From Acidithiobacillus thiooxidans ATCC 19377 (lineage in GTDB: Bacteria; Pseudomonadota; Gammaproteobacteria; Acidithiobacillales; Acidithiobacillaceae), in NCBI RefSeq assembly GCF_009662475.1, contig NZ_CP045571.1, forward strand, positions 556,501-620,500: a stretch of 64,000 nucleotides of DNA, read 5' to 3'. The position numbers and the translations under genes were made by a program. This document shows, piece by piece, positions 4,601 to 34,414 of this stretch (positions are counted from its first letter, which is position 1; each line of letters opens with the position of its first letter). The notes beneath the pieces are model-generated. The model made no database searches, was not told the DNA's origin, and was given only the letters and a program-made list of their open reading frames with translations.

Positions 4601-4659
4601 CCGATACCCGCCCTGAGCATGATCTATACCCTCCCATCAGCTTTCACGGGAGTATCGCC
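4601..4659 (+). promoter_or_regulatory. GATCTATACC leader element, copy A
   Basis: GATCTATACC at 4621-4630 is followed by CTCCC (4631-4635), a loop, and GGGAG (4648-4652). ATA and TAT outside these can also pair around a two-base bulge. GGGAG is the Shine-Dalgarno for the ATG at 4660. An upstream CGATACCC lies at 4602-4609, 22 bp away rather than 20. This is the first of eight copies in the window and the one furthest from the transfer genes. Confidence 0.7.
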
Positions 4660-5094
4660 ATGCCGGGTCACCTGATCCTTGTCCGTCCTCATGCGTCCTT
4701 ACTGGACGGCCCAGTCGTTGTCCACTGTCTGCATCAGATTGGCGGCCACTGCGGCTACCTCTTCGCCGTCGATCCCGATTATGCCCGCCAACCTTTCTGG
4801 CGAAGGGCGCTGTCCTGGTATGGTCGGGTCAACGGCCACCATCGCATGGTCCCTCTCGATCAGCGATCACCCATGGCGCTTCGGGTGATTCTGCGCACCC
4901 TGGAGGCGGGCCACGGAGTGGTGCTGTTCCCGCAGGGAACGGGCATTTCCAATCCGGTCCGGCCAGATCTGCCCGGAGCATCCTGGCTAGCCCGAAAATC
5001 CCGATGCTTGGTCACGGAGATTCGTCTGGATCACTCCGGATGGATTCCTCAAGTGGCGTATCAGGGGCATGAGCGCCGCGCCACTTGTCACTGA
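4660..5094 (+). CDS. PlsC-like acyltransferase domain protein, short
   Basis: A 144-aa protein with the two key motifs of glycerolipid acyltransferases: HASLLD near residues 11-16 (the HX4D catalytic pair) and FPQGTG near 90-95 (equivalent of FPEGTR, phosphate binding). Full-length 1-acyl-glycerol-3-phosphate acyltransferases are usually 220-260 aa, so this protein is short at both ends; the last residues after QVAYQGHERR run into a mobile-element end. The start follows leader copy A with GGGAG as ribosome-binding site. It may be a truncated cargo gene of the conjugative element. The fold assignment is reasonable, activity doubtful. Confidence 0.6.
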   Translation: MPGHLILVRPHASLLDGPVVVHCLHQIGGHCGYLFAVDPDYARQPFWRRALSWYGRVNGHHRMVPLDQRSPMALRVILRTLEAGHGVVLFPQGTGISNPVRPDLPGASWLARKSRCLVTEIRLDHSGWIPQVAYQGHERRATCH

Positions 5095-5141
5095 CCGGGC
5101 AATATGGCGCCACCGATGTGCGGCGTAATGGCGCCATTTCA
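5086..5141. other. Possible IS21-type terminal remnant
   Basis: Between the end of the acyltransferase frame and the break in the PIN gene lie two oppositely oriented copies of a nine-base word (ATGGCGCCA and TGGCGCCAT), next to a TGTCACTGAC-like edge. Repeated TGGCGCCA-containing sites near a TGTCA tip are what IS21-family ends look like, and a similar word sits at the break of the group II intron remnant near 49.35 kb. No IstA/IstB gene is here, so at most a solo end survives. Confidence 0.3.
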
Positions 5142-5213
5142 AAGTGTCTGAAAGCGCAACGGCGCCGGGTAGAGCACGCACGCGTCGTAGATGACGATGA
5201 AGTTCGAACCCAT
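5139..5213 (-). pseudogene. PIN-domain toxin, truncated after 24 residues
   Basis: Immediately downstream of the HTH antitoxin the minus strand reads MGSNFIVIYDACVLYPAPLR and stops four codons later. VIYDACVLYPAPLR is the first strand and first catalytic aspartate of a VapC-like PIN nuclease. The ATG at 5213 directly abuts the antitoxin stop at 5214. The remaining 100 or more residues were lost where the TGGCGCCA-rich mobile-element end begins, so the toxin is dead. Confidence 0.65.
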
Positions 5214-5678
5214 TCATTCGTACCCCATCCTGAGCGCCTGGGCTTGCTCGGCCAGTGCATCAAGGGCCTTGCTGTGCTCAGCGTCGATCCGCTCCTTGTA
5301 CGCGATCACGTCCTGGTAGCGGACACGACGGTGAGTACCGATCTTGTGGAACGGGATCTCGCCGCGCTCCAGCAACCGGACGAGGAACGGTCGCGAGACA
5401 TTGAGTACGTCCGCTGCGTCCTGTGTTGTCAGTTCGGCGTGGATCGGGATGATACTGACCGCGTTGCCCTCACCGATTTCGGTCAGGACGTCCACGAGCA
5501 GGCGCAGCGCCGACACCGGGACGCGCACCGGATGGGACGTACCCTGGTCGTTGAATATCTCGATCTGCTGGGTTTCCGCGCGGGTCTGAAGGAAGGCGGA
5601 CAACGCCCGGCCGCTCTCGCGGGCGATGGCAACTTCTTCGGCCGTCGGCAACGAATGGGTGGGAGAGAGTGTGGTCAT
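5214..5678 (-). CDS. Excisionase-type HTH antitoxin of a PIN-toxin pair
   Basis: A 154-aa protein. The C-terminal half (TTQDAADVLNVSRPFLVRLL, then IPFHKIGTHRRVRYQDVIAY) is a MerR/excisionase-type winged helix that reads the DNA. The N-terminal half (residues 10-80) probably holds the toxin. GGAGG sits six bases before the ATG. Proteins of this architecture are regularly followed by a PIN-domain toxin gene, and one begins right at its stop codon but is truncated, leaving this as an orphan antitoxin or repressor. Its promoter lies in 5679-5760 where CGAA recurs every 8-9 bp. Confidence 0.7.
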   Translation of the reverse strand: MTTLSPTHSLPTAEEVAIARESGRALSAFLQTRAETQQIEIFNDQGTSHPVRVPVSALRLLVDVLTEIGEGNAVSIIPIHAELTTQDAADVLNVSRPFLVRLLERGEIPFHKIGTHRRVRYQDVIAYKERIDAEHSKALDALAEQAQALRMGYE

Positions 5679-5725
5679 GGCAGCCTCCAGGGAGTTTCAA
5701 ACAGCATTATGGGAGGAAGTATAAC

Positions 5726-5756
5726 CGAAATAAACGAATAATCGAAACATCCGAAA
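5726..5756. promoter_or_regulatory. Four phased CGAA repeats upstream of the HTH antitoxin gene
   Basis: CGAA occurs at 5726, 5735, 5743 and 5752, spaced 8-9 bp. It lies about 50 bp upstream of the antitoxin ATG, a fitting place for autoregulation. A direct-repeat operator is an inference only. Confidence 0.25.
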
Positions 5757-5853
5757 TGGGATGGTCTTGCCGGGCAGGCAACCAAAGGGACACCTACTGG
5801 ATGCGCTCGCGGATTTTCTGCCTGATAGACAAGCGACATGGCAGATTCTATTA

Positions 5854-5874
5854 TGTGTATAGAAACCCTACACA
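5854..5874. promoter_or_regulatory. Inverted-repeat operator of the AbiE module
   Basis: TGTGTA (5854-5859) and TACACA (5869-5874) form a perfect inverted repeat with a nine-base spacer, ending 21 bp before the AbiEi start. AbiEi antitoxins are known to bind inverted repeats in their own promoter, so this is a good candidate for the autoregulation site. Confidence 0.55.
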
Positions 5875-5894
5875 ACTGTCTGGTTCGCGCGCAC

Positions 5895-6437
5895 ATGAAA
5901 CGACTGGATCTGCTGAATCGCCTATCCGCCCTGGAACAGAAGGGGCTTGTCGTCTATTCAAGACGAGACCTGGAGAAGATTTTTCCGGAAGAGGATGAGA
6001 AAGCGCTGGAGAAGAGCTTGCAGCGCATGTGCCAGGACAACCTTCTGGTTCGCGCCGCTCGCGGCATCTACCTTTTTGGTCCAGCTGTGCCGCGTCACCG
6101 GGGCTGGCTGATCGAGCGGATCGCGCAGGCCCTGCGCCCGGGAGATTTCAATTACGTTTCTCTGGAAAGTATTCTCTCGGAATATGGTGTGATCTCACAG
6201 ATTCCTGTGGATCGCTTGACGGTAATGACCACAGGCGCGAAAGGGCTCCACAAGACCCCCTTTGGGGCTATTGAATTCACGCACACCAAGCGCACTATTC
6301 CGGATCTTCTGGAAAGAACATTAGTCGTCAAGGGGCGTCCATTGCGTATTGCCAGAAAGCAGGCTGCCATCCAGGATCTCCATCGTGTAGGACGGAACAT
6401 AGACTTGATTGATCGGGACGAGGTGGATGATGAATAA
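5895..6437 (+). CDS. abiEi: AbiEi-type antitoxin
   Basis: A 180-aa protein with an N-terminal winged helix (LLNRLSALEQKGLVVYSRRD) and the AbiEi C-terminal domain (GDFNYVSLESILSEYGVISQ, then MTTGAKGLHKTPFGAIEFTH). It is the cognate antitoxin and repressor of a type IV toxin-antitoxin and phage-exclusion module. The ATG at 5895 fits the domain start; an upstream ATG at 5838 would place the inverted-repeat operator inside the gene. It overlaps the AbiEii start region by eight bases. Confidence 0.85.
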   Translation: MKRLDLLNRLSALEQKGLVVYSRRDLEKIFPEEDEKALEKSLQRMCQDNLLVRAARGIYLFGPAVPRHRGWLIERIAQALRPGDFNYVSLESILSEYGVISQIPVDRLTVMTTGAKGLHKTPFGAIEFTHTKRTIPDLLERTLVVKGRPLRIARKQAAIQDLHRVGRNIDLIDRDEVDDE

Positions 6438-7398
6438 AGAAGATTTTGCGCAATATGTAGATGCGGCCATGCGGGGTGACGGGCTGGGTTTTTTGCGTCC
6501 CGTGGTGGAGAAGGAACTGCTGCACTATGAGATTTTTAGCGCATTGGACGAAGAGGGGCTGTTAAAGGATATGGTGTTTCAGGGGGGAACCTCTCTGCGT
6601 CTATGTTATGGTTCTGAGCGATTCAGTGAAGACCTTGACTTTGCGGGTGGAAAGAATTTTTCCGCCCGGAGTATGGCTGCCGTCAAAGGCTGCATTGTCG
6701 GGAAGATTGGCAAGCGCTTTGACCTGGATATCACAGTCCGGGAGCCCAGGGATGCTCCATTTGATGGGACAGTGCGGGTAGATAAATGGATGGTCACGAT
6801 CCAGACCAGTCCGGATCGTCCGGACGTGCCACGGCAAAAGATCAAACTGGAAATCGCCAACGTACCGGCCTATTCCAGGGATATTCTTCCATTGCGGATT
6901 AACTATTCCGTTCTGGAGGGGCGTAGTCAACCTTTGGTGGCGGTCGAGTCCAGGGATGAGATTCTGGCGGACAAGCTGATTGCGCTTCCTGCTTCCATTT
7001 CCAGAATGATTGGCCAGGAGATGGAGTTTACCCCATCGCGGATCAGGCATCGGGATATTTGGGATATCGCGTGGTTATCTGGTCAGGGAGCGCAGTTGGA
7101 TACCCAACTGGTCAGAAAGAAAGTCTCGGATTATGGATTGGATGAATTCCCCCGGTTTTTGGATCGCGCCATTGCTGCGATTCCCGTGATTGCTGGTGGA
7201 GAGGGGTTTCGTGCGCAGATGGCGCGATTCCTGCCGCAAACACAACATGACAGGGTGTTTGGCAAGGAGGGGTATGAGAAATATTTCGAGAATACGGTCA
7301 GCGGATTGCTATCCAGTCTGCGGAAGGATCTGGAATTTGATCTCAAAAAAGTCCAGCAGGTGCTGCCAGGGAAGAAAAAACGTGGGCCGGAGTTATAA
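6430..7398 (+). CDS. abiEii: AbiEii nucleotidyltransferase toxin
   Basis: A 322-aa protein of the AbiEii/AbiGii family. FQGGTSLRLCYG followed by FSEDLDF (about residues 50-71) is the nucleotidyltransferase core with the metal-binding aspartates. ESRDEILADKLIAL near 178-191 is the second conserved block. AbiEii homologues such as MenT modify tRNA acceptor ends. Of two in-frame ATGs, 6430 has the better spacing to GAGG at 6419-6422. All motifs are intact, so the module is probably functional, unlike the two decayed toxin genes to its left. Confidence 0.88.
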   Translation: MNKEDFAQYVDAAMRGDGLGFLRPVVEKELLHYEIFSALDEEGLLKDMVFQGGTSLRLCYGSERFSEDLDFAGGKNFSARSMAAVKGCIVGKIGKRFDLDITVREPRDAPFDGTVRVDKWMVTIQTSPDRPDVPRQKIKLEIANVPAYSRDILPLRINYSVLEGRSQPLVAVESRDEILADKLIALPASISRMIGQEMEFTPSRIRHRDIWDIAWLSGQGAQLDTQLVRKKVSDYGLDEFPRFLDRAIAAIPVIAGGEGFRAQMARFLPQTQHDRVFGKEGYEKYFENTVSGLLSSLRKDLEFDLKKVQQVLPGKKKRGPEL

Positions 7399-7470
7399 GG
7401 CATCCTGATTTTAAAGCACAGCAGAGCAACTGCGTCTCTATGCCGGGCAGGGCGCTGCTCGGCCCGATAA

Positions 7471-7535
7471 AGCTATACCACGATCGCCCGATCTATACCC
7501 TCCAGTCGAAGATTAACTGCGCTGGAGAGTATACG
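7471..7535 (+). promoter_or_regulatory. GATCTATACC leader element, copy B
   Basis: GATCTATACC at 7490-7499; a second CTATACC at 7473-7479, exactly 20 bp upstream. The inverted repeat is the most extended of the set: TATAC (7494-7498), one base, CTCCAG (7500-7505), a 16-base loop, CTGGAG (7522-7527), one base, GTATA (7529-7533). GGAG is the ribosome-binding site for the ATG at 7536. Confidence 0.8.
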
Positions 7536-10500
7536 ATGCCCGTCCCCGCCCCATCCCCTTCAGGGAACAACACCGATAGGAAAGATCCCCGTCTTGAGCT
7601 TGCCGACCGACTGATTGAACAGATCGGGGCAGGAACTGCCTCCTGGCAAAGGCCCTGGGAAGCCGGCGATGTGTTGGCCCCGGTCAATGCAGTCACAGGC
7701 AAGCCTTACAGCGGGGTGAACTACCAAAATCTCATGATGTTCTCTCCGGACCCGTCCGATCCACGTTGGTGTACCTACAAGCAGGCCCAGGAGCAGGGCT
7801 GGCAGGTGCGCAAGGGTGAGCATGGGATTCCCATCGAAAAGTGGTCGCGTTACGAGCACAAGCGCACCGATGAGGAAATAGAGAGGCTTTGGGCGCAGGG
7901 CGCCCAGAACATCGAGCCCGTGGAGGAACGGCTTGGTGTCCGTTACTACACGGTGTTTCACGCATCACAGATAGACGGCATTCCCCCGCTGGAGCGGTCC
8001 CCGCGTCTGGAGATCGAGGGGAAACCCGATGATCGGTTGCCGAAGCTGGCCGAGCGCCTGGGCGTGGAATTGCGGTACGGCGGCGGCCGGGCGTTTTATC
8101 GTCCGTCGGAGGACCGGGTGCAGATGCCTCCCGTGGAATCTTTCGAGCAGGCTGTGGGGCATGACACCACCCTCCTGCACGAGCTGTCCCATGCCACAGG
8201 TCATGAGAGACGACTGAACCGCGATCTGAAAAACTCCTTCGGCAGTGAGAAGTACGCCATCGAGGAGTTGCGGGCGGAGATGTCCGCGGCCATGACCGCA
8301 GCGAGTTTGGGGATTGGCTTTGATCCTGCATCCCAGGACCTGGAAGAGGGGCGCGAGATGGGTAATTCAGCCGCCTATCTTGCCTCATGGCTCAAAGCCC
8401 TGCCGGAAAAAGAGCGCAAGCAGATCCTGATGCAGACCATCAAGGATGCCCAGGGGATCAGCGACTATCTGATCGAACGGACGCCGGAATTGCTGGTGGA
8501 GCAGGAGCGACCAACCGTCTCCCGTGGCGATTACGTCCGGTACAGGAATGAGATTGGGCAAGAGGTTGAGGGCGTGGTGCTTGACGCCGCCCAGCCCGGC
8601 GAAGCAACGCGACTGAGGCGCATCTACCGGTGGCCCAACGGCACCCCCGGCCTGGACGGGGCGGACGACATCGCGCCCACGGTACTGCCTAACGACCTGG
8701 TGGAACACATCCCGGGCGCTGTCACCCCCGGTCCGGATCTGGACGCCATCGATCCGCAGACCGATGCGTACCAACGCACCATAGGCATGGACGATTCGCG
8801 CGATCGGGCGGGCCTCGCCGTGCTCATGGCGGTCGAAACCGCGCGTGGGCAGCCGGAGCGGGCGGCGGCCCTGCAGGCGGCGGCCTTGCGGGCGGCAGCC
8901 TTGCCGGAACGCGCCCTGGACCCGGAGCTGATTGCGTTTCTTGAAAACCGCACCCGCATCCGGCAAGGCGAACACCCGAATTTTGCCGGACTGAGCGATC
9001 CCGTCGCCAATGCCGAAGCCTTCGTTGAGCGGCAAGGCCGTACCGATCCCCAGCGTTCCGCGCAATGGGCCAGAGCGCTACAGGAAAGCCCGGTGGCTTA
9101 CGGCGAGGCTGTGGGCCTCAGTCCGGCCACGGTGGGTCTCGTCGCGTCTCAACTGAACCAAGGCGCTCGGCGCATGGAACGACCCCAGGTCGGCGATTTC
9201 GTGCGTTTTGAACCGCATGAACCGGGCGTGACATCCAGTCCCTTCTCAGGACGGATCATCGCGGCCTTGGATACCTCTGGCGGCGATATCCGCTATCACC
9301 TGCGGGCGGAGACGGGGCCAGATCAGGGTATTGAGGCACGGGTATATGGCCGGGACGGACAGTTCTGCGAGATCGCTCTGGATCAGGCCGTGGGATTCGA
9401 CCGGGCTCTCGCTCCAGAGGCAGAGAAAGCCCCCCAGATTCAGGTCGGAGACTTCGTGATAACCCGGAGAAATCAATTCGGGGCAGACTGGGATACTCCC
9501 TCCATCGTTACCCGCATCGATGACTCCGAAGTCCGGTTGCAGGACCTCTACCGCTCTGGCCAGGAATGGGAAGTCGCCCCAGCCAGGCGAATGATGTCTC
9601 GTGAAGACTTCGATACGGCTCTCAGTCATCAGGTTAGTGGCGTGGTGCCGCCCGAGATCGCATCAGAAAAGCTCGATTTCGCCGCCAGCCGGGACCGATT
9701 CGTCGGTGTGGTCCGGGCTTTTGATGCCGAACACAGTCTCATGTACGGCAAGGCACCGGAACCTTTGACGAAGGTCCCCGACGATGTGCGGCCATTCCTT
9801 GGAGGCCAACAGGCTACGGTGACAGATCAGTTGCTCCGCAGCAGCGAAGAAAAAGGCTTTTTCTCGGACAAGATGCAGGAGTTACAGGAGATTATCCGGC
9901 AGATGCCGGCGACCTATGAGACTGACGGCGTGCCGGACAGCGAGCGCCCAGTATCCCTGCGCTATTTTGGTCCCAATGGTGCCCAGTGGTTCATCCTTGA
10001 GAAGGATCGCGGAGATCCGGCCAATGAGGGGAACGGCTTCCCGAACCAGATGCAAGCTTTTGGTCTGGCGGACTTAGGTATGGGCCATCCCGAAGTGGGC
10101 TACATCAGTATTCCGGAGATCACCCGTGCCGGGGCGGAACTCGATTATCACTTTGCGCCCCGGACCCTTTTGGAGGTGAAGCTGGAGCACTACCCAGACC
10201 TGCTTCCGCCAGAGCATCGCCCAGTGGATCCGCGCAAGGAACAGGCACTTCAGGAGTACCAGGCGTTTTACGCCCAGTTGCCACAGCGGGAAGAGAAACT
10301 GGTGACGGCGGTCCGCGAGCGCTCCGAGCGTCTGGCTCCGGCGGATTTTCGGGGCTTCTCCGACATGATGCGGGATTTCCGCACAGGCGTGGACGATACC
10401 TTTGGGATCCTCCGGGAGGGAGAAAACCGGGGATCGTCGGCCCCGGAATTACGCCTGGCGCAGGCGTTCGCTCCGGAAGAGATCTCCGATCTGCCCGCCG

Positions 10501-12686: not shown

Positions 12687-12746
12687 AAACAGTAGGTACC
12701 GGAGTTTTTGTGAGCAATTTTTTCTGGAAATGAAAAGGAGAAAGTG

Positions 12747-13943: not shown

Positions 13944-14218
13944 GCCTGGCCGAAGAACTGCTGGAGTGGGCCGAGGAAGAGCTGGAGCGAGGGGATACGG
14001 CGCACCGGGAGCGGGTTGCGCTGATCCTCGCGCAACTCCGTGAACTGCCTGACCCTGAATCGCTCCCGGTCGGGTCCACCCAGCGATTTCTCGCACAACG
14101 GCGTGTGGACAAGCTCGCCGAGAGGGCCGAAGAGCTGGGTTTTGAAACGCCCGGCAAGACGCTGAAAAAGGAGATCGGCAAACAGATTGCCGGTCATGCC
14201 TTGGGCATAGAACTGTAA
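13940..14218 (+). CDS. Small helical hypothetical protein
   Basis: A 92-aa, highly charged helical protein (MSLAEELLEWAEEELERGDT). Its ATG overlaps the previous stop as ATGA, indicating coupled translation. No family was recognised. It is the third gene in the leader-B operon and is likely cytoplasmic. Confidence 0.6.
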   Translation: MSLAEELLEWAEEELERGDTAHRERVALILAQLRELPDPESLPVGSTQRFLAQRRVDKLAERAEELGFETPGKTLKKEIGKQIAGHALGIEL

Positions 14219-14228
14219 GGAGACGGTT

Positions 14229-14600: not shown

Positions 14601-14622
14601 GGCAATTTTGCGCGGAGGTCAC

Positions 14623-15567: not shown

Positions 15568-15571
15568 GGCC

Positions 15572-15631
15572 GGTTATCCCTCTGCGCGCTGATCTATACC
15601 CTGTCGATGTTCTTGATGACAGGGTATGGCC
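15572..15631 (+). promoter_or_regulatory. GATCTATACC leader element, copy C
   Basis: GGTTATCCC at 15572-15580, ten bases, then GATCTATACC at 15591-15600. ATACCCTGTC (15596-15605) pairs perfectly over ten bases with GACAGGGTAT (15618-15627). ACAGGG is the ribosome-binding site for the ATG at 15632; an ATG at 15626 lies inside the stem and is too close to it. Confidence 0.8.
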
Positions 15632-19357: not shown

Positions 19358-19417
19358 AGCTATCGTCTCCGCGCCCGATCTATACCCCAATGGAATAATA
19401 GCTATAGGGGTAAATTC
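19358..19417 (+). promoter_or_regulatory. GATCTATACC leader element, copy D
   Basis: CTATCGT at 19360-19366 and GATCTATACC at 19377-19386 keep the 20-bp spacing. TACCCC (19383-19388) pairs with GGGGTA (19407-19412). GGGG is the ribosome-binding site for the ATG at 19418. Confidence 0.75.
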
Positions 19418-21479: not shown

Positions 21480-21480
21480 G

Positions 21481-21497
21481 GTGTGTATTATACACAC
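21481..21497. promoter_or_regulatory. Palindromic operator of hicAB
   Basis: GTGTGTATTATACACAC is a perfect palindrome of eight-base arms around one base, ending one base before the hicA ATG. It overlaps where the core promoter must be and fits a HicB-binding site. Confidence 0.65.
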
Positions 21498-21688
21498 AGA
21501 TTTCCGCAAGTCACTGTCGGGAGACTAACGGGCAACCCTCCATTTCCCTCGTTTTGTGCAAGGGGTGTATTCATGGATGTGCGTGCAACTTATTGTCGTC
21601 TGCGCCCGTGCGCTTCTGGAGTCCCGGCAGACCTTGGATGGCCAGCCTGGCAATAGCGAGCGACTGCGCGAACTTCCGGTGTAATGCA

Positions 21689-21760
21689 GGGTATACCAAA
21701 ACCCGCCGATCTATACCCGCGCAAGGACAAATGAGTGTCCGTCCACGAAAGGGTGTTCAC
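21689..21760 (+). promoter_or_regulatory. GATCTATACC leader element, copy E
   Basis: GTATACC at 21691-21697 and GATCTATACC at 21708-21717 keep the 20-bp spacing. Outer pairing TACCC (21714-21718) with GGGTG (21751-21755) encloses a second hairpin, GGACA with TGTCC at 21725-21740. AAAGGG precedes the trbC ATG at 21761. Confidence 0.75.
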
Positions 21761-22147: not shown

Positions 22148-22150
22148 GCC

Positions 22151-25062: not shown

Positions 25063-25064
25063 GC

Positions 25065-26210: not shown

Positions 26211-26215
26211 GCGAC

Positions 26216-26292
26216 AGGCATCTCCACCCAGCTCTGATCTATACCCATGGAGTCCAGATCATTGCGCCGGGATCGGCGCAGGGAGGTTTTCT
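26216..26292 (+). promoter_or_regulatory. GATCTATACC leader element, copy F (divergent)
   Basis: GATCTATACC is intact at 26236-26245, but the upstream half-site (CATCTCC at 26219-26225) lacks TAT, and the outer pairing is reduced to CCC with GGG. Instead GCGCC (26264-26268) and GGCGC (26275-26279) form a separate hairpin just before AGGGAGG, the ribosome-binding site of trbJ at 26293. Confidence 0.6.
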
Positions 26293-27033: not shown

Positions 27034-27044
27034 AGGAGATGATG

Positions 27045-27299
27045 ATGAAAAAAGCCCTATTGCTCGCAGTACTAGGCGCCATGTTGGCCGGTTGCGCACA
27101 CCAGCCAGTATACACCGCGCATTATTATCGGACGCACAAGGCAGCGCTCAAAAAGGAAATTGCCTTCTGCGCGAAGGCTGAAAAGCTATCGGATAGCGAG
27201 GAAAAGAACTGTCGGACGGCGCACGAGGTACGGTCGGATGAAGAGGCGGCAGACGGACTCTTCTCTGGCGGCACGAACAACCCTGCATTGCTGCCATAA
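27045..27299 (+). CDS. EexN-type entry-exclusion lipoprotein
   Basis: An 84-aa lipoprotein: MKKALLLAVLGAMLAGCAHQ ends in the lipobox LAGC. The mature part has the EexN pattern YYRTHKAALKKEIAFCAKAE followed by EEKNCRTAHEVRSDEE with two cysteines. EexN proteins block redundant transfer into cells already carrying the element. AAGGAG lies six bases before the third of three clustered ATGs (27045). The tail ADGLFSGGTNNPALLP repeats the TrbJ tail. A truncated second copy of this gene is at 30.8 kb. Confidence 0.8.
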   Translation: MKKALLLAVLGAMLAGCAHQPVYTAHYYRTHKAALKKEIAFCAKAEKLSDSEEKNCRTAHEVRSDEEAADGLFSGGTNNPALLP

Positions 27300-27312
27300 A
27301 GAGGTTGGGCTT

Positions 27313-29085
27313 ATGCGTGGACTACGCAGGTTTCCGTGGGTCGTGGGCATGCTTCTGGGTGCCGTCCCCGCCATTTCATTCGCAGCGGGTTCGGGATCGT
27401 TGGGCCAGGTACAAAGCCTTTTGCGAGGCAAAATTCTTCCCTGGCAAAGTGTCATGCAAACGGCGGCCACGGATCTGTTCTACGTCCTGGCGGCGGTCGA
27501 GTTCTCCGTCCTCTTTTTGAACCATGTTCTGCAAAAGCGTGGGCACGAAGATCTCTTTGCCGGTATCATCAAGAAGGTGGTGACGCTGGGGTTTTTTCTG
27601 ACCCTGCTGGACAACTCCGGGACCTGGATTCCCGACATCATCAATGGTCTGGCCGGTGGAGCGCACGCGCTTGGAGTGACGGCTGTGACGCCCGGGCAGA
27701 TCGCGACGGAGGCTCTTCAGGCATTTCTCGGGATCGTGCTGTCTCCAATAGCTGCCGCCACCCACAACGCGAGCAATACCTTCAGCGACATTTTCAGTGG
27801 TAACTTCTCTGCGGCTTTCTCTTCTGCGGCCAAAACGGTCGCCAGCAGCAATCCGGCATCGCTCCTGGTAGAGACCCTCCTGGCGGGGATCATTGGTCTG
27901 CTGGCGGGGATGGGTATTCTGGTCATGGCCCTGGAGTTCCTGATGGTCCAGATCGAGAGCTACCTGGTGATCGCCCTGGGCGTGATCATGCTGGCCGGCG
28001 GCGGGCTGCGCTGGACGGCAAAGTATGTCGGCAGTTACTTCGATTACGCCATCAACGTGGGTGTCCGTCTTTTTGTCCTGACCGCGCTGGCGTATCTGGT
28101 GACCTACAGCATCGTGCCGCTGATCAAGACGATCCTGGAGAACGTCACCAATCCGCTCCAGGCGGGGTTCGAGGTGCTCATTCTGGGCGCGGTGATCGCG
28201 CTGCTTCCCCGAAAGGCTTCGAGTATTGCCAGCAGCCTGCTTTCCGGCCAGTCCAGCTTCTCTGGCGGGGAGCTTGCGAAAGAGGGCGGGATGATCGCCG
28301 GTGGTACGGTAGCGGCTGGAGCGGGAGTGGCGGCCCTAGGCGTTGGTGCGGCTGGCGGTCTCACCGCTGGTGGACTCTCCGCAGCGGCGGGCGCTGGAGG
28401 CGGTGCAGCCGGAGGCGCTGGCAGCCTTGCAGGCGGCGGCCTTGCCGGAGCCGCGGGTGCGGGAGAGACCAGCGCGGCGGCTGGTGTGGCGGCCCCGGAA
28501 GCTGGAGCGATGTCCGCAGGTGGTGGTGCGAGTTCCGGCGCGGGCGAGGGGAACGCTGTCCCTGCCCCCAGCGCTGGCGGTTCGACGGGTGATGAGGCTC
28601 CACAGGCATCCAGGGCTGTGCAGGCTCCAGCGACCAGCACGCAATCCACTGGCCAGCAAAACCCATCCAAGGGTGTCGAGGCACCGATCCAGGAAGCTGG
28701 AAAGGAAGCGGGCCAGGATAAGCAGAACGATCAGGAAATGAGCGCAAGCGAACCCTTTGCAGGGGGTGAACCCCATCCCGATGCGCCGCCCGCTCCGGTC
28801 AATGCGGTTCCGACTCCTAAGCCCGTCAGTGCGCCTTCCGGCGGTGGCGGTCAGGGAAGCACGGCGGCTCCGGCTCCGAGCGCGCCCGCAAGTGGCGGTG
28901 CCACGATGGACGATGTGGTCGAGCAGATGAAGCAGATGCAGGGGCAGCCGAAGGGGGTGGTGGATAAGGTGAAGGAGGACTTTGCCGATAGATTTCAAAA
29001 ACATGTGGAGGAAATAGCTACAACAAAATCAAATCAAGTCCAGAAGAACGCCATAGATACCAGTCACCCAAGAGATTTTGATTGA
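27313..29085 (+). CDS. trbL: TrbL/VirB6-type polytopic inner-membrane protein
   Basis: A 590-aa protein. Signal-like start (MRGLRRFPWVVGMLLGAVPA), then six or more membrane spans over residues 50-320 (LLAGIIGLLAGMGILVMALE, YLVIALGVIMLAGGGLRW) with the TrbL/VirB6 block. The C-terminal 270 residues are low-complexity G, A and P-rich (SAAAGAGGGAAGGAGSLAGG), as in other TrbL proteins, ending in a charged helix (VVDKVKEDFADRFQKHVEE). It forms part of the inner-membrane channel. The G/A tract contains two GC-rich repeat units at 28417-28447. The start at 27313 places it 13 bp after eexN. Confidence 0.88.
   Translation: MRGLRRFPWVVGMLLGAVPAISFAAGSGSLGQVQSLLRGKILPWQSVMQTAATDLFYVLAAVEFSVLFLNHVLQKRGHEDLFAGIIKKVVTLGFFLTLLDNSGTWIPDIINGLAGGAHALGVTAVTPGQIATEALQAFLGIVLSPIAAATHNASNTFSDIFSGNFSAAFSSAAKTVASSNPASLLVETLLAGIIGLLAGMGILVMALEFLMVQIESYLVIALGVIMLAGGGLRWTAKYVGSYFDYAINVGVRLFVLTALAYLVTYSIVPLIKTILENVTNPLQAGFEVLILGAVIALLPRKASSIASSLLSGQSSFSGGELAKEGGMIAGGTVAAGAGVAALGVGAAGGLTAGGLSAAAGAGGGAAGGAGSLAGGGLAGAAGAGETSAAAGVAAPEAGAMSAGGGASSGAGEGNAVPAPSAGGSTGDEAPQASRAVQAPATSTQSTGQQNPSKGVEAPIQEAGKEAGQDKQNDQEMSASEPFAGGEPHPDAPPAPVNAVPTPKPVSAPSGGGGQGSTAAPAPSAPASGGATMDDVVEQMKQMQGQPKGVVDKVKEDFADRFQKHVEEIATTKSNQVQKNAIDTSHPRDFD
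28417..28447. repeat. GC-rich 15-bp repeat units in the trbL tail
   Basis: GCTGGCAGCCTTGCAG and GCGGCGGCCTTGCCG, read as AGSLAGGGLAG. The same unit is read as AALPE in the ArdC-like gene, a different frame. Confidence 0.65.
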
Positions 29086-29170
29086 TGGCCTGCTCTTGAC
29101 ATGGCGGGATATCCGTGACGGTATACCACTAACAACGGGATTGGCAGAGCCACGGGCCAGGATATCTGAA

Positions 29171-29554
29171 ATGACCGCAACGATTTTTCGTTATAAACCT
29201 AATGGCGAGCGGGACCATTACCTTGAGCAGATAGAACGCGAGGTGGCGGAGCTTCACGCCCGGCCTGGGGACGGCGAGCTTTGGGCGTATATCTTCAGCC
29301 TCCCCATCAAGGCCCTCGCCTTCGTCCTGTTCCTGCCCTTCCGCTACGGCTACGGCAAGCATTTCCTGTTCCTGATTTTTGTGGCTCCTCTGCTGCTGAT
29401 ATTCGGGTGGGTGGCGGTGGAACTCGTACTGAAAATCCACGCGGAGCCTCAGGTGTTCCTGGCCCACTGGCAGGCGCATGTCATCCGGCACCCGGCAGCG
29501 GTCCATTGGACCTGGCTGGTCCGGGATCTGACGCAGACATTGGCTGCGGCGTGA
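29171..29554 (+). CDS. Small membrane protein at the end of the trbJ-trbL unit
   Basis: A 127-aa protein. A charged N-terminus (FRYKPNGERDHYLEQIEREV) is followed by two adjacent hydrophobic spans (ALAFVLFLPFRYGY and FLFLIFVAPLLLIFGWVAVE) and an amphipathic C-terminus. The ATG at 29171 with AGGA eight bases upstream is preferred; a TTG at 29078 overlapping the trbL stop would add 31 residues. No family was recognised. It may be a TrbK- or mating-pair accessory protein by position only. Confidence 0.5.
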   Translation: MTATIFRYKPNGERDHYLEQIEREVAELHARPGDGELWAYIFSLPIKALAFVLFLPFRYGYGKHFLFLIFVAPLLLIFGWVAVELVLKIHAEPQVFLAHWQAHVIRHPAAVHWTWLVRDLTQTLAAA

Positions 29555-29734
29555 CATGATTGCACCCGACCCTGTTCCTGACGTACCGGGATACATTTGC
29601 GGACACTCATCCTGTAGCGGCCCTCTGGACCTGATTGGCTCGGATGTGTGCAGGAAGGGTCAGAGACCATGTGGTCGAACGTGCTTGCGTCATGTCAAAC
29701 GTTTATGCTACAAGGAGCACGCAGGAGATTACCT

Positions 29735-30364
29735 ATGGAACGATACATGATATCAGCACCTTCGGCCTTTCCTTTCGATGCCCGGAAAGCTGCCCAAGTG
29801 GCAGCGTTCTTTCTTATTAAGGCGCGAGAGAGAGACGCAAACGTTTCCGTTCTGAAGCTCATGAAACTCATGTATCTCGCCGAACGGGAATCTTACAAGC
29901 AGTATGCTTCTCCCATGATTGGGGATGCGTTGTTTTCGATGCAACATGGACCCGTTCTATCCAATACGTTGAACCTCATCAACTCAGCACCCGATGAAAG
30001 GCAGGGTGGTGAACACTGGGATGAACTCATTTCAGAACGAAACGGGCATTATCTCTATCTACGCAGCGATGCACCGATACAACATGCTGATGACTTGCTT
30101 GAATTGAGCGAAGCGGATTTGGACATTCTTGAAAATCTATGGAATCAATTCTGTCGTTATTCGGCTCACGATATAAGGGAATACACCCATAACCCGGAAA
30201 ACTGCCCGGAATGGGAAGATCCGGGCAATTCCAGTCGCCCTATTTCTATGGAGACCATGCTGAGGAGTATGAATTACACGCCTGTAGCCATACAGGATAT
30301 TTGCGAGAACTTGGAGAAAATGGCATTTATCCAAGAAAAAACAAAAAATAACGTATTATATTAA
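29735..30364 (+). CDS. Panacea-domain (DUF4065) antitoxin
   Basis: A 209-aa protein with the Panacea/SocA-like domain: AQVAAFFLIKARERDANVSV then LKLMKLMYLAERESYKQYA, the conserved Y-L-A-E-R helix, and PMIGDALFSMQHGPVLSNTL. Panacea proteins are antitoxins with exchangeable toxin partners. AGGAG stands seven bases before the ATG. The stop is one base from the next gene, making a two-gene module. It is the first cargo after the trbL unit, and its AT content is higher than that of the tra genes, suggesting a separate origin. Confidence 0.8.
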   Translation: MERYMISAPSAFPFDARKAAQVAAFFLIKARERDANVSVLKLMKLMYLAERESYKQYASPMIGDALFSMQHGPVLSNTLNLINSAPDERQGGEHWDELISERNGHYLYLRSDAPIQHADDLLELSEADLDILENLWNQFCRYSAHDIREYTHNPENCPEWEDPGNSSRPISMETMLRSMNYTPVAIQDICENLEKMAFIQEKTKNNVLY

Positions 30365-30365
30365 T

Positions 30366-30761
30366 ATGGTTCTTTCTCCTGGCGTCGCTCTATTTATTCC
30401 AAGCGGGCCATCTGGCGATCATTTATTTGTGATTGTGTTTGGTCCCAAAAAGTTACCAGCCTACGGTGATCAGGATCAGTTCCTTTTGGTTCCAATTTGT
30501 ACTGCTATCACTGGCTGTTCTCATGAGTGCCGAGTGCCTGTTGGGTGCCACCCATTCGTCACACATGACAGCTATGCTGATTTTGCGCATGCGCAAATAA
30601 GAAATATAGTGGACCTGTGCCAGAATGTAGAAACCACACTCTTTAGACTCCACCCTGTCAGGATTGACCCGCCGACGTTACAAAAAATGATCGACATCCT
30701 TCCAAGATCAAAGCAAGTGCGCCGATTCATAAATAAAGATTTTTTTGGAGATTCACGCTGA
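30366..30761 (+). CDS. Candidate toxin partner of the Panacea antitoxin
   Basis: A 131-aa protein (MVLSPGVALFIPSGPSGDHL and onwards) starting one base after the Panacea gene stop. The first 80 residues are strand-rich (FVIVFGPKK, FLLVPICTAITG, CRVPVGCHPFVTHDSYADFA), reminiscent of an SH3-like or PemK/MazF barrel, though the catalytic signature is not evident. Three cysteines and two histidines could be functional. The C-terminus is helical and basic. By gene order it should be the toxin of the pair. No named toxin family could be assigned. Confidence 0.6.
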   Translation: MVLSPGVALFIPSGPSGDHLFVIVFGPKKLPAYGDQDQFLLVPICTAITGCSHECRVPVGCHPFVTHDSYADFAHAQIRNIVDLCQNVETTLFRLHPVRIDPPTLQKMIDILPRSKQVRRFINKDFFGDSR

Positions 30762-30767
30762 AATTGT

Positions 30768-30848
30768 GGTTGCGGGAGTCAGCAGCCAGTCTATACGGCG
30801 TATTATTATGAGACGCACAAGAAAGCGCTCCGTAGCAACTCTGGTTAA
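30768..30848 (+). pseudogene. Truncated duplicate of the EexN lipoprotein gene
   Basis: In frame the bases read GCGSQQPVYTAYYYETHKKALRSNSG and stop, in blocks: GCGSQQPVYTA then YYYETHKKAL. They match the start of the mature EexN protein (GCAHQPVYTAHYYRTHKAAL) at 27093-27155. The signal peptide and the cysteine-rich tail are missing. The stop lies nine bases before the left end of the IS element. It is evidence that this island once held a second copy of the exclusion gene. Confidence 0.7.
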
Positions 30849-30857
30849 GCCCCTGTA

Positions 30858-32114
30858 GGGCACTTCGAATAACAAAAATTTCACGACTTGAGAATGGAAT
30901 ATTCCCCTTTCCTCGCCACTTTCAGGCGATTTTTACGCATTATCCCTACTTTATCTGCGTATTTCCAGTATTTTTAGCCTTTTTCGTGGGCTTTGGACGG
31001 ATTGATCCCTACCTGGCCACCGATTGCTGCATTAAGCAGGTAAATCGCCGCATGTTATAGACCAGATTCATCATGCCGATTTTGACTTCAGCGCGAGCCA
31101 TACCAATGGTGCGCAGAAACTTACCACCCTGCTGTACCATGGCGCCAAAGGCATGCTCAACCCGTGCGCGGTGGTGTGACCGGCGCGTGTTGGCCAACTC
31201 CTGGGCCTTGGTCAAGGGGCGGTTGCGTTGCGCCTTCTCGTGGATTCGGCTGCGGTAACCTTTTTGACATAGCATTTGCTCCGCTTCCGTTGAACGATAG
31301 GCGCTGTCCGCAAAAACCTGTACGCCCTGATTCTCCGGGTCCAGAAGCGCTTCCAGGCACTGACTGTCATGCACAGCGGCATCCGTGACCATGTACTGAT
31401 GAATCAGCTTGTGGCGCTTGTCCACGTTGATATGGTTCTTGTATCCGAAGAAACTGCGGCCATTCTTTTTGGTCCAGCGGGCATCGGTGTCTTTCTGGCG
31501 GCGCTTGGCGGGCTGATCCTGCCACGTCTGGGGCGTTTCGCCCTGATTGACCTGTTCCCGCTCCTTCCGGTGCATCCGTTGCCGTGGAACCGTCACAAAA
31601 CTCGCGTCGATGATTTGCCCGGCCCGTGCGGCGTAGCCGGCTTCCCGCAGAAAAGCATGGAAGGCCGTGAACAGTCGCTCCGTCAGTTTGGCCTGGGCCA
31701 GTGATTCACGGAATAGCCACAAGGTCGTGTTATCGGGTACGGCTTCCTCCAACCCAAGCCCCAGGAAACGCTGAAAACTGAGGCGATCCCGAACCTGGTA
31801 TTCGGTTTGTTCGTCGCTGAGATTGTGCAGTTGCTGTAACACCATCATCTTGAAGAGCAGCATCCGGTCGTAGGGCTTCCTCCCTCCCGGCCCTTTGGGC
31901 TTGGCCTTCGGCACACTCTCCAGAATTGGGCGGAAGCGCTCCCAGGGAATGAGCCGGTTGAGCAGCGGCAGGCCGTCGCCCAGCAAATCCAGTTCCCGCA
32001 ACCGGCGGTCTCCGGGGAAAAATCCTGTTTGCCCTACCAGTCCTGCCATGGTTGCTCTCCCTTCCAATCGGCTCCCTGCATTTTACTGGAAATGGGGAGT
32101 TTTTCGAACCGCCC
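30858..32114. mobile_element. IS5-family insertion sequence (1257 bp)
   Basis: The left end GGGCACTTCGAATAAC and the right end (reverse complement GGGCGGTTCGAAAAAC) form imperfect terminal inverted repeats. TGTA at 30854-30857 and 32115-32118 is a 4-bp target duplication. One intact transposase gene on the minus strand fills the element. Insertion occurred between the EexN remnant and the tail of a HigA-like antitoxin gene, whose reading frame now continues into the IS. Confidence 0.85.
31009..32049 (-). CDS. IS5-family transposase
   Basis: A 346-aa DDE transposase of the IS5 family. LLFKMMVLQQLHNLSDEQTE is the DUF772-like N-terminal block, GQIIDASFVTVPRQRMHRKE carries the first catalytic aspartate, FADSAYRSTEAEQML the second, and HHRARVEHAFGAMVQQGGKF the glutamate region. 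GGGAGAG precedes the ATG at 32049. The length is complete and no frameshift is seen, so the element may be active. Confidence 0.9.
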   Translation of the reverse strand: MAGLVGQTGFFPGDRRLRELDLLGDGLPLLNRLIPWERFRPILESVPKAKPKGPGGRKPYDRMLLFKMMVLQQLHNLSDEQTEYQVRDRLSFQRFLGLGLEEAVPDNTTLWLFRESLAQAKLTERLFTAFHAFLREAGYAARAGQIIDASFVTVPRQRMHRKEREQVNQGETPQTWQDQPAKRRQKDTDARWTKKNGRSFFGYKNHINVDKRHKLIHQYMVTDAAVHDSQCLEALLDPENQGVQVFADSAYRSTEAEQMLCQKGYRSRIHEKAQRNRPLTKAQELANTRRSHHRARVEHAFGAMVQQGGKFLRTIGMARAEVKIGMMNLVYNMRRFTCLMQQSVAR

Positions 32115-32423
32115 TGTAGCCGATGGGTGACTGCTTGTGTGTGCTGGTTGGAAGGAAAGCCGCAGGCCGAGTGCCTGGGTTATTTTCAGCACCGTTACCA
32201 GGCTCGGGTTCCCTGTTCCGGAAAGGGCCTTGTCCAATCCTTGGCGGCTCATGCCTACGTCGCGGGCAAGCTGGCTGAGGTTGCGGGCGCGGGCAACGTC
32301 TCCCAGCGCTGCAAGAATCAACGCGGGGTCGCCATCATCCATCGCAGCATCGAGATAGTGCGCAATATCGTCCTCAGTCTTGAGGTAATTCACGGTGTCG
32401 TAGCGTCTGAATTGCACTTCCAT
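32034..32423 (-). CDS. HigA-like antitoxin, C-terminus altered by IS insertion
   Basis: A 129-aa protein paralogous to the 18553-18852 antitoxin: YLKTEDDIAHYLDAAMDDGD, then ARNLSQLARDVGMSRQGLDK and GNPSLVTVLKITQALGLRL. The family is about 100 residues long. Here the frame crosses into the IS right end after HPSAT, adding 27 foreign residues (GRFEKLPISSKMQGADWKGE). The core helix-turn-helix and toxin-binding parts are intact, so it may still work. The ATG at 32423 was chosen by comparison with the paralogue. Confidence 0.75.
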   Translation of the reverse strand: MEVQFRRYDTVNYLKTEDDIAHYLDAAMDDGDPALILAALGDVARARNLSQLARDVGMSRQGLDKALSGTGNPSLVTVLKITQALGLRLSFQPAHTSSHPSATGRFEKLPISSKMQGADWKGEQPWQDW

Positions 32424-32430
32424 GATAACA

Positions 32431-32727
32431 TTACTCCTTCCATTGCGTTGCAATGGCTTTTGCCAAAGCAATGTCCCGTTCCTGGCTCCCCTTGTCTCCG
32501 CCGCACAGAAGCGCCACCACAACTGGTCCGCGCCTCATGAAATAGACGCGATAGCCAGGACCGTAGTCAATCCGCATTTCCGAGATGCCTTCACCTACAG
32601 GCTTCACGTCTCCAGGATTCCCAAGGCTCAATCGGCGCATCCGCACCTGAATCCTTGCGCGGGCTTGGTGGTCGCGCAGACCTTCGAGCCATTCTCTGAA
32701 CACGTTGGTTTCTATGAGTTCAAGCAT
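32431..32727 (-). CDS. RelE/HigB-like toxin, second copy
   Basis: A 98-aa toxin with the same blocks as the 18253-18549 protein: FREWLEGLRDHQARARIQVR, VGEGISEMRIDYGPGYRVYF and VVALLCGGDKGSQERDIALA. The spacing of seven bases to the antitoxin ATG is as in the first module. Upstream in-frame residues are rejected by alignment with the paralogue. The toxin appears intact, and its antitoxin carries the IS-derived tail. Confidence 0.82.
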   Translation of the reverse strand: MLELIETNVFREWLEGLRDHQARARIQVRMRRLSLGNPGDVKPVGEGISEMRIDYGPGYRVYFMRRGPVVVALLCGGDKGSQERDIALAKAIATQWKE

Positions 32728-32793
32728 ATGACAACCATAGTTGCTATGTGCTCGCATGTCAACCGCAGTTGACAGATGTTGATCATGCCCCGC

Positions 32794-32852
32794 GATCATC
32801 TCACCCGGCCCCGATCTATACCCTCTCAGGATCCCACCTGAGAGGGTTTTCC
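32794..32852 (+). promoter_or_regulatory. GATCTATACC leader element, copy G
   Basis: GATCTATACC at 32813-32822. ACCCTCTCAGG (32820-32830) pairs perfectly over 11 bases with CCTGAGAGGGT (32837-32847) around a six-base loop. TTTT follows the stem. GAGAGGG is the ribosome-binding site of the ATG at 32853. The upstream half-site is weak (TCATCTC at 32796). It is very similar to copy H at the other side of the hypothetical-gene pair. Confidence 0.78.
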
Positions 32853-32951
32853 ATGACCAGTCCCCTGCCTGCCGGCCAGCCTGCCAATGTCTCCAATCTC
32901 TGGTTCGAGATCCGCATGGCGCGATTTGATTTGCAGGACATTGCAATATGA
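32853..32951 (+). pseudogene. 32-codon fragment behind leader copy G
   Basis: The frame MTSPLPAGQPANVSNLWFEI continues to RMARFDLQDIAI and stops at 32949-32951, overlapping the next start. It is properly placed behind a leader element, like the first gene of every other transfer unit, but is far shorter. It is probably the N-terminus of a transfer-region gene cut off by arrival of the AT-richer genes that follow. No family was recognised. Confidence 0.45.
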
Positions 32952-33352
32952 TGACGAATGACAACACGTCATCGAACTTTCTGGAGATGGCCTGTTTCGT
33001 AAATGGTTTGGTGTCAACAATCCCAACTCCCGAATGTTATCCAGTACTTGGGGCGCATGGTCACCAACCATTTATCGAGATTTCCCATGGTCAGCTGGAA
33101 GATAGGACCATCTTCTGTACAATTTATGCTGAGGTTGATGGCTGCTTCAGGCTGGGATCAATACCCGCATTCCCGAATAAGCGCGAGACCACCATTGAGC
33201 TTCCGCAGTTTGCTTACATCATCGGTCTCACAAGGCTTTTGGAATCAAAACTCCGGTGTTCCTGCAAAGTGCTGCATCCTCTGAATGATCACGGAGACTT
33301 CTTTGTAGATTGGCAGGAGGCGGTCATATCTATCATCGACGGAACTACTTGA
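32948..33352 (+). CDS. Hypothetical cargo protein
   Basis: A 134-aa protein starting MMTNDNTSSNFLEMACFVNG, no signal peptide. Recognisable features are only a few cysteines (LRCSCKVLHP) and an acidic pI. Base composition is less GC-rich than that of the tra genes. It converges with the next gene, and the two overlap by eight bases at their 3' ends. Function unknown. It lies between leader copies G and H. Confidence 0.5.
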   Translation: MMTNDNTSSNFLEMACFVNGLVSTIPTPECYPVLGAHGHQPFIEISHGQLEDRTIFCTIYAEVDGCFRLGSIPAFPNKRETTIELPQFAYIIGLTRLLESKLRCSCKVLHPLNDHGDFFVDWQEAVISIIDGTT

Positions 33353-34265
33353 TATAAATGTAATCAAGGCTATCAACGATAACGTCACAGCCACGCCCCC
33401 CAATGGCTGGCCTCCCGTAGGCGTACCACTTAATAGTTTTGTCTGGCTGGCATAGATCATTTAGCCTTTGACATAGTGCATGATGTGAGCGCGGCGAATT
33501 TTGGTTCAACAAAGCAGAAGTGTTTATCTTCACAAAAAATTGGATCTTAGCCAAATTGGGGACTTTTGCGGCTATTTCGCTAGTTATTTTGTAACATCCA
33601 TCTAAACCTATAACAACGCCTTTCCCGTGATAAATACGATCATTATTCCAATTGATATATCGGGGGGTACGGAAAGCGTCGTCATAGTTTGTATCATCGT
33701 CCAGCGTCAATGGCATTTGTTTCAGATTTTTCTTAAACCATTCGTTTCTCTTGCCTTCATGGAGATGGTCTCTCCCGAATAACTCATAGCCTTCGGCAAG
33801 AACAGCGTTGCGAACTTCTACCAATGGTTGCAATAGATATGTCCTTGGCCTTGCCAGGCCAGCAACTCCAGCCTCCCGTCGTCTTCTTCGTACTTCGTCT
33901 GGCGTCGGAGGTTCAGATCTGCTATTGCGCGCGGTATTGCTCGCTCGCGGTGCAGGACGAGTAATCAGAACTTCTGGCGCATGCATGACACTTTTCACAT
34001 AGTGTCTTTTCGTTGGTTCATTAACATGGCTTGGAACGCTATCAGGTGTTCCGTCGCACCCATATCTATGGGCACCAAACCTTGCTGAGAAGTGGGGAGA
34101 CTTCGATAGCTCTCCAGTTTCATATATCAGCACACTACTTAGCCTGATATCGCAGTATGGACAGTAAAATTTATCGAACGCGGTCTCATCCCGAAGGAAT
34201 AGAGAACGGTAGTCCCATGCGCTTAACGGTTCGCCACCTGGCTCCGTTGAGGCATAATCTGACAT
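33345..34265 (-). CDS. Hypothetical cargo protein with a zinc-ribbon-like start
   Basis: A 306-aa protein. CPYCDIRL near residue 35 followed about 35 residues later by HRYGCDG could form a zinc site. The middle is basic (PDEVRRRRREAGVAGLARPR). The C-terminal part (GKGVVIGLDGCYKITSEIAA, LAKIQFFVKINTSALL) looks globular. It lacks motifs I can tie to a family. Its AT-richer composition and opposite strand mark it as cargo placed between leader copies G and H. Confidence 0.55.
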   Translation of the reverse strand: MSDYASTEPGGEPLSAWDYRSLFLRDETAFDKFYCPYCDIRLSSVLIYETGELSKSPHFSARFGAHRYGCDGTPDSVPSHVNEPTKRHYVKSVMHAPEVLITRPAPRASNTARNSRSEPPTPDEVRRRRREAGVAGLARPRTYLLQPLVEVRNAVLAEGYELFGRDHLHEGKRNEWFKKNLKQMPLTLDDDTNYDDAFRTPRYINWNNDRIYHGKGVVIGLDGCYKITSEIAAKVPNLAKIQFFVKINTSALLNQNSPRSHHALCQRLNDLCQPDKTIKWYAYGRPAIGGRGCDVIVDSLDYIYIK

Positions 34266-34355
34266 ATGCGCACCCCCCTACAGAATTCAGCCATGACCCA
34301 AGATACCCAACATCCACTCCGCTGGATATACCCTCGCTCGCCGGGCGCGAGCCCC

Positions 34356-34414
34356 GGTTATCCCCCCACCCCTTGATCTATACCCTCTCAGGAATCATCT
34401 GAGAGGGTTTTTTC
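34356..34414 (+). promoter_or_regulatory. GATCTATACC leader element, copy H
   Basis: GGTTATCCC at 34356-34364, ten bases, GATCTATACC at 34375-34384. ACCCTCTCAG (34382-34391) pairs perfectly with CTGAGAGGGT (34399-34408), followed by T6. GAGAGGG is the ribosome-binding site of trbF at 34415. Stem plus T-run also looks like an intrinsic terminator immediately before the gene, so attenuation is possible. Confidence 0.8.

Follow-up and report, generated by a model that had tools for sequence, protein, structure and literature searches.

What does a ten-base sequence do that stands, eight times and always on the same strand, shortly ahead of genes for conjugation? The question is raised by a 64,000-nucleotide stretch of the genome of Acidithiobacillus thiooxidans ATCC 19377 (contig NZ_CP045571.1, positions 556,501 to 620,500; the window, below), in which GATCTATACC recurs within an integrative and conjugative element (ICE). 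An earlier reading made from the sequence alone (the sequence-only reading) had proposed two models, an RNA hairpin that masks the Shine-Dalgarno (SD) sequence or a promoter that overlaps a variable dyad. The account that we judge probable is that GATCTATACC marks a promoter family, perhaps read by a diverged sigma factor, with an SD-masking inverted repeat added at some genes. Taken on its own, the ICE-wide promoter family is very likely real.

Distribution of the ten-base element

The window holds eight exact copies of GATCTATACC, all on the plus strand, against 0.05 expected and a maximum of 1 in 100 dinucleotide shuffles; four further sites appear when one mismatch is allowed. Their coordinates and strand had been given correctly by the sequence-only reading, and each copy precedes an ATG with an SD-like stretch before it, the distance from motif start to ATG being 39 to 57 nucleotides (nt) at all eight. 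The whole genome (3.42 Mb, one contig) has 17 copies, compared with 2 for the reversed control. Sixteen of the 17 fall at 550.7 to 643.7 kb, inside one ICE that holds eight more copies beyond the window, and one lies elsewhere. This ICE is 101 kb long, with 50-bp direct repeats at genome positions 543342 (the end of a tRNA-Pro gene) and 644578, and encodes a tyrosine integrase, trb genes, a coupling protein, topB, and parAB.

Within the ICE, a called gene start is found at most 110 bp away from 12 of the 16 CTATACC sites that carry GAT and from 0 of the 8 that do not; three of the remaining four GAT sites (copy B and a divergent pair) precede starts missed by the gene caller. When the longest frame is taken, starting at 7440, copy B falls within it, which makes ATG 7536 the probable start of that gene. 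The label of a relaxase pair for one of the units found no confirmation: B heads an ArdC-like polyvalent protein and C a protein without a Pfam match. At genome position 631756 (L010:11256, minus strand), a copy sits within the traB nitrilase-like coding sequence, as it does in the matching stretch of L021, L033, and L049; it may be an internal promoter or a codon coincidence.

Copy numbers range from 19 to 39 in four genomes of the same genus (G008, G009, G011, and G014) and reach 13 each in G004, G005, G007, and G022 and 10 in G029. The element outnumbers its reversed control in most genomes compared, so each genome can be expected to hold a few background copies. In other ICEs, GATCTATACC heads the orthologues of ssb, topB, g96 (the partition, or par, operon), the ArdC-like gene, the trbB unit, the gene in the trbC position, trbJ, trbF, and the acyltransferase-like gene, and it is also found at a divergent pair about 40 bp apart. 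Relatives of TrbE with 45 to 74% identity occur in Acidithiobacillus and in unclassified proteobacterial records. The proposal that the element coordinates conjugation genes is well supported by the concentration of genomic copies in the ICE and by the orthologous genes that it heads in other ICEs; further copies ahead of homologous trb genes, which the sequence-only reading had called for, were found at the trbB unit, trbJ, and trbF.

A promoter-like signature around TATACC

For motif statistics, 110 copies with flanks were reduced to 94 (by a rule on SD and start codon, with 15 loci added by hand) and to 45 by removing those at least 60% alike; doubtful members remain among the 45 (L034 7060, L041 1729, and L042 3832). 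TATACC is numbered −12 to −7 by convention. The sixth base after it is a purine in 42 of the 45 deduplicated copies (binomial p, 4e-10), preceded by C in 27, and a pyrimidine-purine (YR) step occupies that place in 34 of 45, compared with 1 to 16 of 45 at the other 28 steps counted. Outside the search string, C is found at −18 in 36 copies and a pyrimidine at −17 in all 45; the base right after TATACC is C in 34. A YTAT-like half-site lies 17 bp upstream in five of the eight window copies and in 19 of the 32 start-codon sites of sister elements. The five are B, C, D, E, and H, as the sequence-only reading had it, with TAT exactly 17 bp before TATACC (AGCTAT, GGTTAT, AGCTAT, GGGTAT, and GGTTAT, respectively).

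We read TATACC as a −10 box and the purine six bases on as the predicted transcription start, and the constant part of the motif looks like a promoter rather than an RNA leader. On this reading, GATCTATACC would be the core of a promoter family belonging to one Acidithiobacillus ICE family, whose RNA would start at that purine. Two classes can be sorted by eye. Class I promoters, at several trb genes and the ArdC-like gene, would add the YTAT half-site, whereas class II promoters, at ssb, topB, the par operon, and others, have instead, six bases ahead of GATC, TGACCC or a close variant. A shared promoter family would make the ssb, topB, partition, and type IV secretion system units one regulon.

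Sister elements outside the GATC family bear on the age of this arrangement. Eleven of the 12 loci scanned supply 39 CTATACC sites (L057 and L063 belong to one genome, and L099 and L100 are near-identical elements), the search string having included the C before TATACC; 32 sites have a downstream start codon. TAT or TAC stands exactly 17 bp (end to start) before TATACC in 19 of these 32, and those 19 show the purine in 17 cases and the YR step in 15. The bases before TATACC vary: GGTC in L057 (3/3 start-codon sites), GTGC at 3/4 and ATGC at 1/4 sites in L058 (Acidithiobacillus sulfurivorans), and mostly CGC, TGC, or AGC in L059 to L063, L070, L099, and L100, with GCGC at 4/6 in L061. Sister elements keep the half-site at many sites but differ before the −10 box, suggesting that the −35/−10-like pair is older than this ICE family and that the bases before the −10 box are lineage specific. 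The promoter model of the sequence-only reading thus gains support from the start-site signature and from sister elements, which keep the −35/−10-like pair at many sites but seldom the hairpin (2 of 21 leaders).

Three observations weigh against this interpretation. The purine comes without a YR step in window copies B and F, the half-site is found at 0/4 sites in L058, and TATACC has no T at −7, where one is expected for sigma70.

The motif could also be an operator, in which GATCTATACC and the YTAT repeat 20 bp away are bound by an ICE regulator (e.g., g96 or a BisDC/SetCD-like activator) and the promoter itself is made by a host sigma factor. At some sites (B; L060, L099, and L100) CTATACC is repeated at a distance of exactly 20 bp, g96 heads the par operon, and ICE-wide activators are used by SXT/R391 (PMC4344509). 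In that system, as described in the sections of PMC4344509 that we draw on, SetCD drives a set of ICE promoters, some of them back-to-back and divergent, that are poor as sigma70 promoters; our proposal resembles it in having one element-encoded regulator for a set of ICE promoters, a divergent pair included. However, SetCD boxes lie immediately upstream of or overlap −35 (PMC4344509), whereas the invariant sequence here is the −10 region. The site would thus overlap the −10 position instead of lying upstream of −35; moreover, the upstream repeat is missing from class II sites and g96 has no family match. In ICEclc, the late regulator BisDC turns on transfer genes in a BisR/BisDC cascade; the main text of the report, PMC7423338, does not use the words motif, binding site, or consensus and hence offers no site to compare. 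Among the ICE proteins scanned, which are part of the full set, there was neither a SetCD-like or FlhDC-like activator nor a BisDC homologue. We regard the operator as unlikely, though not far-fetched.

The same genus offers other conjugative elements for comparison, ICEAfe1 and the ICEs of Acidithiobacillus caldus. The transfer genes of ICEAfe1 form four operons and are induced by mitomycin C; their promoters were predicted by general software, and the relevant parts of these reports describe no shared element-wide motif (PMC6370655, PMC3826726). A literature search, with most subscription journals outside its coverage, found neither an Acidithiobacillus ICE sigma factor nor this motif among the papers listed. 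A text search for the 10-mer gave nothing on conjugative elements, as judged by title and the start of the abstract, and a search combining sigma factors with ICEs gave no match.

An inverted repeat over the Shine-Dalgarno sequence at some genes

The sequence-only reading had also seen, after each copy, an inverted repeat with varying but complementary arms, the right arm being the ribosome-binding site. The arms that it quoted for A, B, D, G, and H read as claimed, and those of C are also present. A right-side shuffle test puts the stem at p<0.05 for B, C, D, G, and H, five of the eight copies in the window. The copies, with their putative promoter parts and stems, are as follows.

Copy A, 4621..4630, plus strand: GATCTATACC; −10-like TATACC 4625-4630; predicted start A 4636; arms CTCCC 4631-4635 and GGGAG 4648-4652 (p=0.066); before the acyltransferase-like gene, ATG 4660.
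Copy B, 7490..7499, plus strand: −35-like AGCTAT 7471-7476; −10-like TATACC 7494-7499; predicted start G 7505, preceded by A (no YR step); arms CTCCAG 7500-7505 and CTGGAG 7522-7527 (p=0.034); before the ArdC-like polyvalent gene, ATG 7536.
Copy C, 15591..15600, plus strand: −35-like GGTTAT 15572-15577; −10-like 15595-15600; predicted start G 15606; arms ATACCCTGTC 15596-15605 and GACAGGGTAT 15618-15627 (p=0.002).
Copy D, 19377..19386, plus strand: −35-like AGCTAT 19358-19363; −10-like 19381-19386; predicted start G 19392; arms TACCCC 19383-19388 and GGGGTA 19407-19412 (p=0.004); before the trbB unit.
Copy E, 21708..21717, plus strand: −35-like GGGTAT 21689-21694; −10-like 21712-21717; predicted start A 21723; SD-masking stem not significant (p=0.52); before the gene in the trbC position, which has no TrbC match.
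Copy F, 26236..26245, plus strand: −10-like 26240-26245; predicted start A 26251, preceded by G (no YR step); SD-masking stem not significant (p=0.93); before trbJ.
Copy G, 32813..32822, plus strand: −10-like 32817-32822; predicted start A 32828; arms ACCCTCTCAG 32820-32829 and CTGAGAGGGT 32838-32847 (p=0.002); before a 32-codon reading frame.
Copy H, 34375..34384, plus strand: −35-like GGTTAT 34356-34361; −10-like 34379-34384; predicted start A 34390; arms ACCCTCTCAG 34382-34391 and CTGAGAGGGT 34399-34408 (p=0.002); before trbF.

Among 63 distinct leaders of 34 to 66 nt from several ICEs (a set that excludes the topB and g100 leaders), an SD-side stem was found at p<0.05 in 18 and at p<0.01 in 13; among 60 control genes without the motif, the numbers were 4 and 1. 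Own arms also pair better than swapped ones (14.07 versus 10.85; standard deviation, 0.73; p=0.0002) in 14 of the 16 ICE copies, 550745 and 631756 being left out and two ICE copies added by hand. We conclude that the SD-masking stem is a real but partial feature. The claim of an inverted repeat holds above chance for a subset and fails as a property of every copy, A, E, and F not being significant. As for the claim of compensatory change, the trbF-type stem does contain two pairs with two-sided change, but 54 of 500 shuffles score equally high, which makes it weak as a separate argument.

Where the stem exists, its position relative to the predicted start suggests a role. The left arm spans from about ten bases before that start to at most one base after it, ending before it in A, C, and D, at it in B, and one base past it in G and H. 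The left arm being almost wholly upstream, the stem could form only in read-through RNA. At the roughly one-quarter of leaders with an SD-masking repeat, RNA started at the promoter would lack the left arm and be translated, whereas RNA reading in from upstream would fold and escape translation. In phage T4, the late promoters of gene e and I-TevI lie in the 5′ arm of an SD-masking hairpin, early read-through RNA is untranslated, and late promoters are read by the phage-encoded sigma factor gp55 (these details are from part of PMC3014915). The layout here, judged by the predicted start, is alike; unlike in T4, the core is GATCTATACC, the setting is an ICE, the genes are for conjugation, and the hairpin is confined to a subset. 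A T4-like silencing of read-through RNA falls, in our estimate, a little short of an even chance.

Several results weigh against such a role or limit its reach. The stem is at p≥0.05 in 45 of the 63 leaders and, as noted, reaches p<0.05 in few sister leaders, and the arm-swap test is marginal in G008 (Acidithiobacillus montserratensis; 14 copies, L042 3832 dropped; p=0.057). For RNA that begins at the predicted start, modeled SD exposure goes up from 0.00 to 0.62 in C, from 0.21 to 0.54 in D, from 0.11 to 0.62 in G, from 0.19 to 0.44 in H, from 0.10 to 0.35 in B, and from 0.25 to 0.61 in topB; A, E, and F show no such rise. Two copies whose stem is not significant show it as well, lyz (0.21 to 0.60) and g102 (0.22 to 0.50), so the shorter RNA explains part of the change. 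We therefore rejected the exposure model as specific support. At 7 of 14 copies (A, G, H, topB, g100, g109, and lyz) the annotated upstream gene is divergent, and read-through there is not obvious. The idea that stems occur only where the upstream gene is codirectional was set aside, the orientation test not being clean.

The stems also bear on the hairpin model of the sequence-only reading, in which transcripts begin upstream of GATCTATACC and GAUCUAUACC plus the hairpin forms a cis-acting translational switch for an RNA-binding protein. In its favor are the excess of SD-masking stems over chance in a subset and the two two-sided changes between related leaders. Against it, the stem is missing at those 45 of 63 leaders and at 19 of 21 sister leaders, the constancy of the 10-mer is due to search selection, and a spacing to YTAT of exactly 17 bp and a YR step following TATACC are features of DNA or promoters; no Rfam match exceeded the gathering score at window positions 4000 to 36000. 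With most leaders stemless and left arms almost wholly upstream of the predicted start, we rejected the RNA leader as a general function and hold it to be quite improbable.

A candidate reader of the promoters

Sigma-like genes are known on mobile elements, such as SigN of pBS32 and Orf7 of Tn916, both in Gram-positive hosts. A classical sigma factor inside the ICE was rejected: none of the 16 Sigma70_r2 matches in the genome falls at 543 to 645 kb, and no recognizable sigma gene was found there. The best candidate is g18, a protein of 399 residues (genome positions 548649 to 549845) in the gene order DUF1376, dnaC, g18, dam-like gene, ssb promoter; dnaC, g18, and dam are adjacent in the same order in L013, L018, L024, L040, and L051. 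After the copy in this ICE, ssb (164 residues in L013) is not intact, and only a C-terminus-like stretch is left (L009:14245-14440).

Structure prediction by AlphaFold2 gave a mean predicted local distance difference test score of 51 for the whole of g18 and 77 for a 191-residue core with nine relatives. Foldseek searches with the core returned sigma or RNA polymerase-sigma entries at ranks 1 to 16 (E, ~1), and VIA-align placed such entries, by title, at ranks 1 to 29 for whole g18 and 1 to 30 for the core. The core aligned with sigma domain 2 over about 99 residues at about 3 Å with Z scores of 6.5 to 5.0, values common for helical folds. The resemblance of the predicted core to sigma domain 2 is suggestive.

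The slot before the dam-like gene points the same way. L098:6241-8055 (A. sulfurivorans) is a single reading frame that joins a g18-like domain to a Dam-like methylase (tblastn E, 1.7e-6), and L099 and L100 have slot-mates before dam-like genes with 21 to 22% identity to g18; these two entered the g18 alignment by slot and that identity, so their matches to the g18 profile are by construction. The profile, slot-mates included, finds matches in 9 of 31 genomes of the order, and G019, from another genus, has both g18 at 42% identity and GATCTATACC ahead of ssb. Elsewhere, sigma-like open reading frames stand directly before dam-like genes at L124:2345-3280 and L101:9306-9827, with TIGR02937 E values of 1.4e-6 and 2.4e-6, below the curated cutoff, and Sigma70_r2 E values of 9e-4 and 2e-4, also below cutoffs. 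The sigma-dam pair seems to be recurrent in Acidithiobacillus elements.

A good deal speaks against g18. It has no sequence match in Pfam, NCBIfam, PHROG, or PDB, and hhalign comparison with host sigma factors or with the dam-adjacent sigma-like reading frames finds nothing. Foldseek with whole g18 ranks a 14-3-3 protein first (E, ~1), with sigma and 14-3-3 entries mixed, and VIA-align Z scores of at most 6.5 are below a telling level for helical folds, sigma chains being abundant in PDB. Moreover, G005, G007, and G022 and G029 carry GATCTATACC and lack a g18 match, although the copies in G005 are spread over contigs. From the structure-match ranks and the dam-adjacent slot, we hold g18 as the likely, unproven reader. 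The promoters would then be targets of RNA polymerase bound to a highly diverged sigma-like factor that the element encodes, g18 being the most likely one; to this part of the account we give an even chance.

The methylase itself could suggest an epigenetic switch, the core GATC being the target of the Dam-like enzyme of the ICE and methylation switching the regulon at transfer, and a Dam-family gene does stand shortly before the ssb copy in those GATC ICEs that were compared, but sister elements with dam-like genes carry GTGC, CGC, or CTGC in place of GATC and GATC is unbiased in the ICE (654 observed versus 675 expected), which leaves this switch very improbable.

Wider readings and other observations

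A broader interpretation, which we offer tentatively and would not ourselves favor over its negation, is that this is an ICE family with a T4-late-like transcription program. A minimal and rapidly evolving sigma factor, represented by g18 and its slot-mates and once joined to a Dam-like methylase, would read a strict 10-bp extended −10 element that varies by lineage, and hairpins at some promoters would tie translation to RNA starting there. If so, the transfer regulon of each lineage would be insulated against the host as well as against sister elements sharing its cell, which could account for the coexistence of several ICEs in one Acidithiobacillus cell without cross-talk. Transfer of SXT and ICEclc is switched on by their own activators, according to the portions of PMC4344509 and PMC7423338 on which we rely; a sigma factor of its own and a private −10 box would give an element a different means of keeping conjugation silent until it is activated as a block. 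Placing a promoter within a hairpin, as the layout here suggests, could be a simple safeguard against read-through from neighboring genes, and the motif can be used for annotating transfer regulons in this biomining genus.

The ICE has other features of its own. The palindrome CGTCTACCGGGTAGACG occurs 13 times at three or fewer mismatches, in every case in the par/traB/topB arm (L010:8586-17693; genome positions 629086 to 638193), and several occurrences are at or inside promoter leaders; it may be a site for partition or for a repressor. At window positions 35096 to 37271, trbF is followed by two adjacent CagX/TrbG-like genes (391 and 333 residues), and the pair cross-matches at 25 to 28% identity in other loci. 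Farther along, at 44700 to 48698, the ICE encodes a 1332-residue PAS/GAF/GGDEF/EAL protein.

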